A stretch of DNA of 23,178 nucleotides from a virus: the IMG/VR virus record IMGVR_UViG_3300025141_000795, positions 1 through 23,178 of that record; one strand, 5' to 3'. Under the pieces are notes generated by a model, which worked only from the letters and a program-made list of their open reading frames with translations, did not search any database and was not told the DNA's origin. Below, one piece after another: positions 8,744 through 13,309 of the stretch; position 1 is the stretch's first letter, and each line of letters starts with the position of its first letter. Position numbers and translations under genes: made by a program.

Positions 8744-11284
8744 TTATCTCGGCGCTGCGGAGGACCAGGGAAGCAGTGATGCTCGACCCGCCGGGGAGTC
8801 CAGTGCTTTGACAATCGTAGCGTCGACTTCTTCTTGACCTATATAGACCGTAACATTAATTCCGCCTGCCCCATCTCCAGTACCACCGCCGAGGGCTTGC
8901 ACGATGGGATTGGTTATGGTCTCTTTAAGCAGCGGCCCGAAGAGGCTCTTGAGGGCCATATTCTTTACCATGTCCAGAATACCAAACCCCTGTGCAGCTT
9001 TCTTTCCGAGGAAAGTGGAGCCCATTGCGCCGGCTGCGCCCGACGCCATATTCATTGGCATGGCAGTGCCCATTAGCTGGGTGAGGGCGGCGGAGAGTCC
9101 TCCGCCGGGTCGTCCTGCAAGGACCGTATCATTGTCGTCAATCCTGGTGACCTGGCCAGACCTGAGAATTGCACCGTCGGTGATCTTCTTCGGCGACGGT
9201 AGCCCTTTCGCTGCAGCGGCCTGATCCTGTGCAGCTTTCCTCTCTGCATTGGTGCCCCATCCGAAGAGCTTACCCAGGCCGCCGAACGATATATTGTTGG
9301 CAAACTCTACAGCCGAGTTTTTAAGAGCATCCATAGCACTCTGGCCTTGGGTAAGTCGATGAATGAATGACCCCAGGAGGCTGACGATCCACCCGATTGG
9401 GCCGCTGAAAGCAAGAACCTTTTTCCCCATGTCCACGAGGACCTCTGTCCAAGACATGCCCGCTTCCCTCAAGTTCATAATATGTTTGACGAGGAGCGCG
9501 ATGCCGGCGAGTGCGGCCGTAATAAGAACATAGGGGCTCAAATTCCAGGCAACGGTGAGGGCAGTTTGGGCGGCAGTGAAGAGCCATGTCTGTGCTGTCC
9601 ACAGCGCCTGCGCGATGCGGACAGCACCAGCGACGACCTTGAACTTCTGCATAAGGCTAATGAAAGATCCAAGCCAACTGAGCACCTTTATCGCAACTAA
9701 GGCTATCATGACATTCTTGAGTATAAGGGTTACGTCGTGCCCTTCCTTGAACTTAATGATCCATTCCGCCAAGGTCCTTATTCCGACCATAATGCCATCA
9801 GTTAAGCCCTTATTCTCTTGTATCAAAGATTGGAGCGCGAGGGTGAGGCCTTCCATAGCAGACTTGGCTTCTGCGGCGCGCTTGGCGGCCTTTTCCTGGA
9901 CCTTGATTTGTTCTTCCTCTTCCGAGGTGAGACCCATCATCGCTTTGCGCAAGGTATCCACATCTGTGCCCATGGCGGCGGCAAATGCTTTTTGCTCGTA
10001 CTTGCTTAAATCAGAGAACATAGTCCCAGACATGTCCATAGCTTCTTTCATCATCTCCATTCTCTCGTCTTCGGAAGCGTTGAGCATGTCAATAGAGTTA
10101 AGATACGGGCCACCCAATAGGGCGTTTAACTTGCCCACTGCTTTGCCCGCACCCTCAAAAGTATCGAACTGCTCGGTGAGTCCCAAGATCTCGTCAATTG
10201 AAAGCCCTGTGTCCTTGGACTGCATTTCGAGCTTACGGAATACATTAATCATGTCTGTTCCGTAGAATGAAAGCTTTTTGCTTGCGGACGCAAAGTCAGC
10301 AAACACGTCGCTGATGTTTTTGCCCAAGCTGACAGCAGTATCATCAAGCTGCTTAACCAAGTCCATCGATCCCTGAGCATCATAGCCCAAAGACTGCACG
10401 GCATGATCCATAATACCAGTGGTCACATCCATGCTGACGCCAAGCTGGTCATAGACCGCAACAGTACCGGCCACTTTTGTCTGCATACCATCGCTCATGC
10501 GAGTGAAAGAACTCATTCCTCCATAGAGCGACTCCAGAGATTTGCTAGCTTCGTCAAACCCTACTCCCGTTTGCTTCAGATTATTACGAACCGCAGATAA
10601 ATTATTATTAAACTCTTTGCCCGCACCAGTATTCTGGCGAAACTTAGATTGTGCTTCGTCGGCAGCGAAAGCTACCTGCATAAACATATCAAAGAGTTTG
10701 AGCAAACCACCTGTGACCATTTTGTTGATGCTCTTCAGACTAAACATTTCTTTACTGAAGGCTTTAAAGTCGCCAGCAGCGCCGCCGGCGACTTCTACGA
10801 TTTTACTGAGGCCACTACTAAGGCCGAAGATGCTATCCTTAAGTACTATGGCTGCTTGGATACCTTTCGCTTGTTCCTCGTTGAGTTTCTTCTGGGCTTT
10901 TGTTAGCCTCTTAAGCTTCTTTTCTGCCTTGTCGGTCGTGTCGGTCAGCTTCTTGAGCTGCTCAACTTGTTCTCTGGTCAGCTCTACGCCGGGCTCGAAG
11001 GTTTTCTTGAGGTCGATCTCTGCCTGGGCGGCGCGGTCGTATTCTATTTGAGCTAACTTCTGGTTTATCTCAATTAGGTCTTTTTCGCTAGTAGCAAGTT
11101 CTTTCTCTACCATCAGCAACTTTTGCCGGTCTTCGGCGGACATGAAACCAGAGCCTCCGCCTAGGCGCCCCCCGCCGAGGTCGGATTCCGAGCCTTCAGG
11201 CCTGTTCGCTTTTTTTAATTCCGCGAGGATTGCATTCAGAACAGTTGCGTCTGATGCGGTATCTGTGCCGTCTCCGTTAGCCAT
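8744..11284 (-). CDS. Tail tape measure protein
   Basis: An 846-aa protein with typical tape-measure features. These are long Lys/Glu/Leu/Ala helices predicted to coil (about residues 50-150: EKELATSEKDLIEINQKL, then EQVEQLKKL), a Gly/Ala-rich stretch, then at least three hydrophobic segments (about 520-555, 575-610 and 625-650), and a Gly-rich C-terminus. Tape-measure proteins set tail length and enter or help penetrate the host membrane at infection. With the usual 0.15 nm per residue the tail tube would be near 127 nm (inference). It follows the 106-aa gene by 10 nt with a weak Shine-Dalgarno (AGGT) and precedes the gpU-like gene by 12 nt. I see no lysozyme or peptidase motif. Confidence 0.9.
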   Translation of the reverse strand: MANGDGTDTASDATVLNAILAELKKANRPEGSESDLGGGRLGGGSGFMSAEDRQKLLMVEKELATSEKDLIEINQKLAQIEYDRAAQAEIDLKKTFEPGVELTREQVEQLKKLTDTTDKAEKKLKRLTKAQKKLNEEQAKGIQAAIVLKDSIFGLSSGLSKIVEVAGGAAGDFKAFSKEMFSLKSINKMVTGGLLKLFDMFMQVAFAADEAQSKFRQNTGAGKEFNNNLSAVRNNLKQTGVGFDEASKSLESLYGGMSSFTRMSDGMQTKVAGTVAVYDQLGVSMDVTTGIMDHAVQSLGYDAQGSMDLVKQLDDTAVSLGKNISDVFADFASASKKLSFYGTDMINVFRKLEMQSKDTGLSIDEILGLTEQFDTFEGAGKAVGKLNALLGGPYLNSIDMLNASEDERMEMMKEAMDMSGTMFSDLSKYEQKAFAAAMGTDVDTLRKAMMGLTSEEEEQIKVQEKAAKRAAEAKSAMEGLTLALQSLIQENKGLTDGIMVGIRTLAEWIIKFKEGHDVTLILKNVMIALVAIKVLSWLGSFISLMQKFKVVAGAVRIAQALWTAQTWLFTAAQTALTVAWNLSPYVLITAALAGIALLVKHIMNLREAGMSWTEVLVDMGKKVLAFSGPIGWIVSLLGSFIHRLTQGQSAMDALKNSAVEFANNISFGGLGKLFGWGTNAERKAAQDQAAAAKGLPSPKKITDGAILRSGQVTRIDDNDTVLAGRPGGGLSAALTQLMGTAMPMNMASGAAGAMGSTFLGKKAAQGFGILDMVKNMALKSLFGPLLKETITNPIVQALGGGTGDGAGGINVTVYIGQEEVDATIVKALDSPAGRASLLPWSSAAPR

Positions 11285-11294
11285 CGAAAACTAC

Positions 11295-11615
11295 CTAGTT
11301 CTTAAACGGCCATTTCAGGCCGGTTTCGTTTTCAAACTTGCCGACGGCGCCGTCGAGGCGGTGGCGATAATTTAATGTTTTGGGGTCACTCAAGCCATGT
11401 TTAATATAACTGTCCATGTAGCGTCGCTCCCGCTTAAGGGCATCAAAAAAGCTTTCAATTTGAGCATCTGTACCGCGGAGAGCCATGGGAACTTCAACCC
11501 CTGCGTGCATCAGGCTGAGGAGCAGTTGGTTAACCTGCTTGGAGAATGCTGTATAAAACTGCCCCTCTTTCAAAAGAGGGTCGTTGAGGTCAATAATAAT
11601 TTTTTCTTTAGACAT
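11295..11615 (-). CDS. Unrecognised 106-aa protein between tail chaperone and tape measure
   Basis: I do not recognise the family. The protein is soluble and mostly helical by composition, with a Leu-rich stretch (VNQLLLSLMHAGVEVP, residues 28-43) and a charged helix (FFDALKRERRYMDSYIKH). The ATG at 11615 is preceded by GGAG ten bases upstream and by a leader carrying the CTATTTA motif, so it opens a new transcription or translation block together with the tape measure. Its position suggests a role in tape-measure packing, tail assembly or the baseplate, but nothing in the sequence proves this. Confidence 0.7.
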   Translation of the reverse strand: MSKEKIIIDLNDPLLKEGQFYTAFSKQVNQLLLSLMHAGVEVPMALRGTDAQIESFFDALKRERRYMDSYIKHGLSDPKTLNYRHRLDGAVGKFENETGLKWPFKN

Positions 11616-11646: not shown

Positions 11647-11675
11647 AAACAAAAATCCGCTCCTTTTAAGAACGG
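11647..11675 (-). terminator. Possible intrinsic terminator after the tail-chaperone frames
   Basis: On the sense strand an 8-bp stem with two G-U pairs (CCGTTCTT against AAGGAGCGG without the first base of the loop side) is followed by ATTTTTGTTT. The hairpin covers the stop codon of the downstream chaperone frame. It is modest in strength, so attenuation rather than full termination is likely. Confidence 0.4.
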
Positions 11676-11872
11676 CTGCTTGAGGAAGACTCTTCCATGG
11701 CTTTATTTTGCTTCTCGAACTCTTCAATCAACCGCGTAAGAAACCACCTGCGTAGCTGAACAGGAAGGTTATAGGCCTCAAAGAAAGACCACCCTCCGTA
11801 ATGCTTAAGAGCAAAAAACTCTTCGTATACTACTGCTTGGTACTCACTTGTTAGGCCAAAAAAACGCCGCAG
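11666..11872 (-). CDS. Startless overlapping frame, probable frameshift extension of the tail assembly chaperone (gpT-like)
   Basis: This frame is open from just after a TAA at 11873-11875 to a TAA at 11666-11668 but has no ATG, GTG or TTG before its last third. It nevertheless encodes a protein-like sequence: EYQAVVYEEFFALKHY, GGWSFFEAYNLP, then a charged helix (RRWFLTRLIEEFEKQ) and a Ser-rich end. Small proteins with this aromatic helix, a central LP or MP, then an Arg/Lys/Glu helix are found as downstream frames of phage tail assembly chaperones. It overlaps the end of the 289-aa gene, and a run of seven T residues lies in the overlap. A +1 (or -2) shift there would add 63 (or 64) residues to residue 285 of the upstream protein. 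Independent initiation at a CTG is the alternative. Confidence 0.65.
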   Translation of the reverse strand: MRRFFGLTSEYQAVVYEEFFALKHYGGWSFFEAYNLPVQLRRWFLTRLIEEFEKQNKAMEESSSSSRS

Positions 11873-12713
11873 TTAGCGGCATACCCACCTTCCCGAGATG
11901 GCCGCACTCCTCACACTCGAACTCAAACGTAAGATCAAGATCCGGGGTAAGATCGTCGTAAATGTTGCGCAGCTTTCGCGACATCATGGCGGGAATTTCA
12001 TTAGCAAACTTCTTAATAAGATTGCGGTCTGTAATATCGTTAACGCTAACGATAATCGCCTCAAGTTGGTCAGTAATCATCGCATCGGGGAGCTTACGCT
12101 TCTTGCGTGTCTCTCGGCGACCGGCAACGAGTTTTTCGTCTGAGCCCTTAAGAAGTTTAACTTCTACTCTTAGATTAAACTCTTCAAAAGAAATAATATA
12201 ATTTCCATTGTCGCCTTCTGTAACATTATCCGGCAGGTCGACGGATTCTTTGGTAGTCAGCTCATCAAGATTGAGGCTCTCGTCCGTAGTGGCGCTGCAG
12301 CCCGGGCATGTAAGTTGCGTTTCATAAAACGGGCCATAGCCTGTCTTGCGTGCTGCGATCAATAATGCGTTCTTGTCGCCAATAAGCAGATCATTAACTT
12401 TAATTTCTTTATTAACGATGACTGACTGTAATAGCCTGTCAAGTGCGAGGCCTTTTTTAAGGAGTGCCTCCGAGGTAAGGATATCTTCCTCTTTGGCGGT
12501 CATGTGTCGGATCTCGATTGTGTCAACACCGCAGAGAGGATGAGTCTCTGCGTAGTGTTCTCCGCCGCTGGGGAGTTCTACAAATTCTGTGGGGGTGACA
12601 AAGGAAAAGATGCTATCTTCACTGCTTCCTTTTGTCATTAACGGAGCTGGGGGGTTTTCATCACTCGGCGGCTCATGCGTGAGCCCGGAGCGATTAGAGT
12701 TTTTTCTTGCCAT
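11844..12713 (-). CDS. Tail assembly / baseplate hub assembly protein, gp26-like (PF12322 type), with two CxxC pairs
   Basis: A 289-aa protein. Residues 67-100 (EIRHMTAKEEDILTSEALL, then KGLALDRLLQSVIV) are the signature of the T4 baseplate protein family that includes gp26. Two Cys pairs, C136/C139 (CPGC) and C267/C270 (CEEC), could bind one zinc ion. The first 35 residues are Pro/Ser/Asn-rich and probably disordered. The gene lies between tail tube and tape measure, exactly where tail assembly chaperones lie in other phages, and ends in an overlap with a startless open frame through a T7 run. I therefore infer it is the short form of a gpG/gpGT-like chaperone pair, needed for assembly but perhaps absent from the virion. 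The ATG has a GAAGG site seven bases upstream. Confidence 0.75.
   Translation of the reverse strand: MARKNSNRSGLTHEPPSDENPPAPLMTKGSSEDSIFSFVTPTEFVELPSGGEHYAETHPLCGVDTIEIRHMTAKEEDILTSEALLKKGLALDRLLQSVIVNKEIKVNDLLIGDKNALLIAARKTGYGPFYETQLTCPGCSATTDESLNLDELTTKESVDLPDNVTEGDNGNYIISFEEFNLRVEVKLLKGSDEKLVAGRRETRKKRKLPDAMITDQLEAIIVSVNDITDRNLIKKFANEIPAMMSRKLRNIYDDLTPDLDLTFEFECEECGHLGKVGMPLTAAFFWPNK
11858..11864 (-). other. Candidate programmed frameshift site (T7 run)
   Basis: The sense strand reads GCG TTT TTT TGG in the 289-aa frame. A Phe tRNA on TTT can re-pair after a +1 or -2 move because all bases are T; both lead into the open downstream frame, while -1 meets a TAA two codons later. The 0-frame stop (TGA) is only five codons past the run, as in known gpG/gpGT-type sites. 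Confidence 0.6.
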
Positions 12714-12751: not shown

Positions 12752-13309
12752 TTAATCAGTGACAACCGTGAAGGACTCATACGTAGCCCAATCATACTTG
12801 AAAGTTAGATCAATGTTAAGTATTTCATCACCAGAATAGTCTAAATCGCCAAATTTAGCATCAAGAATAAAGGCATTTTGGAGTTTCCATGTGCCGGCGA
12901 TGGCGCCAGTACCCGTTAGCTCGTCTACCTCTACCTGGCCTAACGCAGCCAGTGCGCCCGCCTTATTAACCGTACCAACGTTTCCTTCGACTAAGGCCTC
13001 TTGCTGATCGTTGGGCTTCAAGTAGCCGGACTTGATCAGGGCATCATAAATAACCTTATTTCCGTCAGGGGTTAAAGAGTTAACGATGCTAGCAGCACAG
13101 TCATTCCATAAAACGCTACCGGGGTAGTAGTAAGTGTTGCCGAGAAACTTGTGCTCTGTGCTCGAAACCGTAAAAGAAGGCTTCGTAAAAGTCTTGGCCA
13201 AGTATTCCTGGTAAGTGTGTTCTTGGTCCTTTGAGATCAAGTTAGGTAACCTCAAGATAAATCTATGTTGTCTTTTCGGTTCGGATAAAGGGCTTGTCCA
13301 AAATGGCAT
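12752..13309 (-). CDS. Tail tube protein (gp19-like)
   Basis: A 185-aa protein, close to T4 gp19 (163 aa), directly behind the sheath gene, the conserved place for the tube. It shows beta-rich spacing, the opening FWTSPLSEPKRQHRFILRL, FTVSSTEHKFLGNTYYYPG (about 48-66), and a final TFKYDWATYE that resembles the last strand of gp19-type tubes. Hexamers stack to make the inner DNA channel. The ATG is preceded by GGGAG ten bases upstream, in a leader with the CTATTTA motif. The separate leader may allow the high expression a tube needs. Confidence 0.88.
   Translation of the reverse strand: MPFWTSPLSEPKRQHRFILRLPNLISKDQEHTYQEYLAKTFTKPSFTVSSTEHKFLGNTYYYPGSVLWNDCAASIVNSLTPDGNKVIYDALIKSGYLKPNDQQEALVEGNVGTVNKAGALAALGQVEVDELTGTGAIAGTWKLQNAFILDAKFGDLDYSGDEILNIDLTFKYDWATYESFTVVTD

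Follow-up and report, generated by a model that had tools for sequence, protein, structure and literature searches.

The sequence analysed here, hereafter the window, comprises 23,178 nt of the IMG/VR record IMGVR_UViG_3300025141_000795, which belongs to a marine T4-related virus (major capsid gene against Gp23, 2e-69). A gene of 289 aa is located on its minus strand (11844-12713), with a tail tube gene as upstream neighbour (12752-13309, minus strand; phrog_4542, 1.4e-16) and a probable tape measure gene of 846 aa downstream (8744-11284, minus strand), a 106-aa ORF being placed between the latter and the 289-aa gene (11295-11615). The probable tape measure gene was assigned by length and position, its searches having returned no family at a significant level (phrog_10613 at E 0.064, nothing in Pfam). 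This arrangement corresponds to the position of G/GT-type chaperones, between the tail tube and the tape measure, as had been proposed in the first-pass annotation. Elsewhere on the minus strand of the window, a 395-aa family A DNA polymerase-like protein (849-2036; PF00476, 6e-15), below the usual size for this family, adjoins the tail genes, and an ORF running off the window edge (2-553), which begins with MRVVGLGNAGCNIAKAF, recalls by eye the FtsZ/tubulin-like GTPases and had no Pfam match at E <= 0.01.

The 289-aa protein matched the Pfam family T4_baseplate (PF12322) with an E-value of 6e-15 and 56 bits, above the cut-off of 24.5, as well as phrog_150 (8e-17). The same Pfam family matches both T4 gp26 (8.8e-64) and gp51 (3.9e-52), gp51 being a paralogue of gp26 in T4. 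On sequence grounds, the gene is assigned as a T4 gp26-type tail assembly chaperone.

The 3' end of this gene reads GCG GCG TTT TTT TGG CCT AAC AAG TGA on the minus strand, with a run of seven T at 11864-11858 and the 0-frame stop TGA at 11846-11844. In the +1 frame (equivalent to the -2 frame), exactly 68 codons are open, bounded by stops at 11875-11873 and 11668-11666, the latter being a TAA by direct reading, and the earliest usable ATG, GTG or TTG is found only in the last third. The -1 frame encounters an immediate stop, a TAA at 11853, in agreement with the first-pass annotation, which had described it as closed at once. In a single sequence, an open frame of 68 codons constitutes weak evidence, as chance would produce it in a few per cent of cases; we take it as real because 125 distinct homologous junctions keep the open frame, the encoded domain and the YTT TGG site. 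Direct reading and these 125 junctions thus bear out the proposed 68-codon frame, devoid of an early start and overlapping the end of the gp26-like gene.

Homologues were gathered from a search of viral contigs, which contributed 80, and from an alignment-based search, which contributed 80 more with partial overlap. The downstream frame was in the +1 register in 125/125 distinct junctions, encoding a domain with the pattern GL..Y..VYE.. (G)GWS..EAYNLP..LR.WF, and the 0-frame stop was located 3-4 codons past TGG in 126 of the 128 loci. Five spellings of the site were found among the 125 junctions: TTT TTT TGG CCT (106; also the spelling in the window, at 11853-11864, minus strand), TTT TTT TGG TCT (7), TTT CTT TGG CCT (6), TTC TTT TGG CCT (5) and TTT TTT TGG CTT (1). 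The conserved element is therefore [TTY/TTT]-YTT-TGG-YYT, and not the T7 run, which is intact in 114 junctions and broken in 11/125; the alignment of homologues thus strongly upheld a near-invariant slip site together with its downstream frame, while the T run that the first-pass annotation had singled out was replaced by YTT-TGG as the part that is kept. As the junction loci are related, these counts do not represent independent events; nevertheless, identities among the loci are widely spread, for which reason a chance origin of the conserved site is untenable.

Constraint at the site was compared to that of the rest of the gene in 89 representatives with less than 70% identity, in which 47 conserved degenerate columns were available. 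The three most codon-invariant columns of the 47 were the Pro CCT (83/83), a Phe TTT (84/84) and the other Phe TTT (86/89) of the site, whereas the next column reached 0.78 and the median was 0.39; in the gene body, TTT accounts for 76% of Phe codons and CCT for 24% of Pro codons. Conservation of FFWP could partly come from the 0-frame protein. In 8 junctions, the 0-frame Pro is changed to Ser or Leu while the Gly-Leu of the +1 frame is kept, and conservation in this frame starts right at the site, with Gly-Leu in 127/127. Past the 0-frame stop, differences at positions 1, 2 and 3 of the +1-frame codons amounted to 109, 19 and 444, respectively, and dN/dS among homologues was about 0.05 in this frame, a pattern indicative of purifying selection at the protein level. 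These comparisons, with a conserved slip site close to the 3' end of the gene and an out-of-frame extension that has no start of its own, argue for a real and strongly conserved +1 programmed frameshift site.

The extension comprises 63 codons from GGC (GLTSEYQAVVYEEFFALKHYGGWSFFEAYNLPVQLRRWFLTRL...; 11669-11857, minus strand) and would constitute a gpT-like C-terminal domain, as suggested by its dN/dS, its helix model and its profile match to cyanophages. In profile comparisons, the extension aligned to the T domains of T4-like cyanophages with scores of 26.5-28.3 (permuted maximum, 17.7), and the tail of gp51 aligned to the cyanophage T domain with an hhalign E-value of 1.5e-12 and a score of 60.5 (permuted maximum, 15.4). 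The direct hhalign comparison between the extension and the gp51 tail was not significant (E 0.25-0.36), and the homology between the two is probably indirect, through the cyanophage T domains. The extension was modelled as three helices with pLDDT of 88-97, and a layout of helix, short helix and helix is common to the predicted models of the C-terminal domains. In the model of the fused protein, the middle part displayed pLDDT below 50, derived from a mixed alignment, and claims on the fold are limited to the C-terminal helices; at E <= 0.001, a Foldseek search with this model yielded no more than two matches in BFVD, to uncharacterised phage proteins in each case, and searches of solved structures found no relative of the protein. 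The family DUF6760 (PF20546) was considered and rejected, as its match was below the curated cut-off (14.9 bits against 27, E 0.028).

We propose, with a probability of roughly 0.88, that at this locus a T4-related myovirus encodes its pair of tail assembly chaperones, produced by a +1 slip at TTT TGG; that ribosomes slip, how often they do so and what the short and long forms do are what we infer. Most ribosomes would synthesize the 289-aa short form (G-like, TAC-N), ending at the TGA soon past TGG. A fraction would slip +1 with tRNA-Phe on the P-site UUU (11861-11859) and the A-site codon UGG (11858-11856) still to be decoded. By moving one base towards the 3' end, from UUU_UGG to U_UUU_GGC, this tRNA would pair again with a UUU that overlaps the first, and GGC would become the next codon. 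The slip would yield a 348-aa long form (GT-like, TAC-NC) with the junction ...AAFF-GLTSEYQ..., which would end in the small domain of three helices. If the pair behaves as in lambda, short copies in large number and long copies in small number may cover the tape measure protein and bring in the subunits of the tail tube.

The type of shift was addressed through the site variants. A -1 heptamer of the form X_XXY_YYZ does not agree with the closure of the -1 frame at 11853 and the location of the domain in the +1 register. The first-pass annotation had considered a +1 or a -2 slip on T7, and tail-chaperone shifts of the latter type have a precedent in phage Mu (PMC5009743). Two-base backward re-pairing, which would add one extra Phe (AAFFF-GL), is permitted by TTTTTTT in the 114 junctions whose run is unbroken; however, it would require mismatches in TTC TTT TGG (5 junctions) and TTT CTT TGG (6 junctions, and the isolate immuto), which keep the +1 frame, making ribosomal slippage by -2 improbable. 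A slip at this site is thus retained from that proposal, with +1 favoured over -2 because these 5 + 6 variant junctions permit +1 re-pairing and break -2 re-pairing. The same variants are hard to reconcile with RNA polymerase slippage on T7, in which mixed mRNAs would be produced, some of them reading through into the second frame: although the run is present in most relatives, variants in which the T runs span only 3-4 bases (TTTCTTTGG, TTCTTTTGG) keep the frame, and the invariant TGG-YYT beyond the run would be left unexplained, so that we hold this explanation as highly improbable.

The downstream segment could also be translated as an independent gene, from a start of its own or by re-initiation, as in LR756511, which displays a TAATG overlap, and perhaps in Vibrio phage D508. 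Such overlaps occur in two distant relatives, and an ATG is present between slip site and GGW motif in 37/128 homologues; nonetheless, no start precedes the last third of the frame in the IMGVR_UViG_3300025141_000795 locus, 70/128 homologues lack any ATG, GTG or TTG in that interval, and the +1-frame conservation begins precisely at the site. We give this explanation very little credence. Concerning the +1 slip itself, no Shine-Dalgarno sequence was found upstream of the site at the spacing of RF2, and no marked downstream structure was detected (mean z of -0.61 downstream, -0.63 upstream and -0.16 in the gene body); therefore, no stimulator was recognised. A related contig binned as Flavobacteriales (L279) carries TTT TTC CCT in place of TTT TGG, so UGG is not absolutely required. 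To our knowledge, UGG is not known as a slow codon in the host of this virus.

The same arrangement was found in the isolates Flavobacterium phage immuto (CTT TGG CCT) and Microcystis phage Mel-JY01 (TTT TTT TGG CCT), and in contigs binned as Flavobacteriales. In SP-15, LIS04 and GXN1 the domain is in the +1 register; these phages and LR756508, whose candidate sites are TTT_N or NCC_C, were counted as +1 register only. In T4-like cyanophages, the domain lies in the -1 frame and 64/64 distinct loci display the -1 heptamer NNT TTT TT(C/T); pf16, Bhz51, OLIVR5, Atu_ph04, Atu_ph07 and phiAS5 are also -1. T4, RB49 and five other carriers of gp51 have two PF12322 genes each, while the single-copy phages examined either carry the domain out of frame or show a TAATG overlap. 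In the tree of 0-frame proteins, the +1-register sequences were grouped in one clade (support 96/92, 29 rows), including one TAATG case, which supports a single clade of +1 sites together with the SP-15-like phages. Given long deep branches and a divergent alignment, the order of the recoding events is tentative.

Additional arrangements were observed in individual phages. In Vibrio phage D508 (around 1410-1640 of locus L273), the gp26-type gene overlaps a T-like domain through TAATG, probably a case of re-initiation rather than frameshifting. In Salmonella phage PM10 (Ackermannviridae; around 1420-1600 of locus L274), the gp26-type gene ends with ATT TTC ATT TAA, and the T-like domain is in the -1 frame without a standard heptamer. 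In Agrobacterium phage OLIVR5 (1384-1524 of locus L271), a truncated T fragment is annotated as 'baseplate hub assembly catalyst', the name of gp51, an annotation that provides independent support for the link to gp51.

With T4 gp26/gp51, the chaperone shares the family PF12322; T4 relies on two genes, of which gp51 carries the domain in frame, whereas here a single gene would be used with a +1 shift at YTT_TGG. The T domain is homologous to that of cyanophages, which use -1 at T_TTT_TTY. As in lambda gpG/gpGT, a short form and a frameshift-extended long form would be encoded by a gene that follows the tail tube gene and precedes the probable tape measure gene, but with a +1 rather than a -1 shift, an uncommon direction for this known device; the likeness is one of architecture, and no sequence homology is claimed. 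The site resembles that of prfB (RF2), CUU_UGA C, in the P-site YUU followed by U, the re-pairing to UUU and the A-site UGN, while differing in the sense codon UGG instead of UGA and in having no Shine-Dalgarno stimulator at the RF2 spacing. RF2 sites are mostly CUU_U, with UUU_U in a minority of species (PMC5009743), whereas in the present sites UUU predominates and CUU is the less frequent form. A likely +1 frameshift has been reported in the tail chaperone of the haloarchaeal myovirus HSTV-2, which belongs to a different virus group (PMC5009743).

In a 2016 review, T4 was regarded as an exception to G/GT frameshifting (PMC5009743). According to later citations, short and long forms of the T4-like tail assembly chaperones (TAC-N/TAC-NC) were described by Vladimirov et al. 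(2022; Vladimirov, Gautam and Davidson, cited in PMC10885494, PMC12846349); some T4-like phages are described as having a short copy together with a longer, fused one (PMC10885494), and poly-T -1 signals are mentioned for T4-like TAC-N genes (PMC12846349). The link between T4 gp26 and the lambda G/GT system made in the first-pass annotation thus holds by homology to gp26/gp51 and is not new, having already been published in outline. According to the PRFect paper, a general motif for forward shifts is not known (PMC10885494), and the conserved +1 site of this clade was not found in the open-access literature searched; the conserved RF2-like +1 site before the sense codon UGG appears to be new.

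Sites of +1 shift are far less understood than -1 heptamers, and the 125 distinct junctions, five variants and isolated phages make this site a clean system for studying how +1 slippage takes place at a sense codon. Moreover, the long form of the chaperone is routinely missed in annotation, the extension appearing as a truncated hypothetical protein or as nothing in immuto, SP-15, LIS04 and DSL-LC02. We lean towards the view that, in this clade of marine viruses and Flavobacterium and Microcystis phages, the RF2-like YUU_UGG_YYU before a sense codon would set a fixed ratio of both forms with no recognisable stimulator, and that the chaperone family may have obtained the same protein pair by switching among +1, -1, re-initiation and gene duplication. 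A single gene family would thus attain the same pair of products via several recoding routes.
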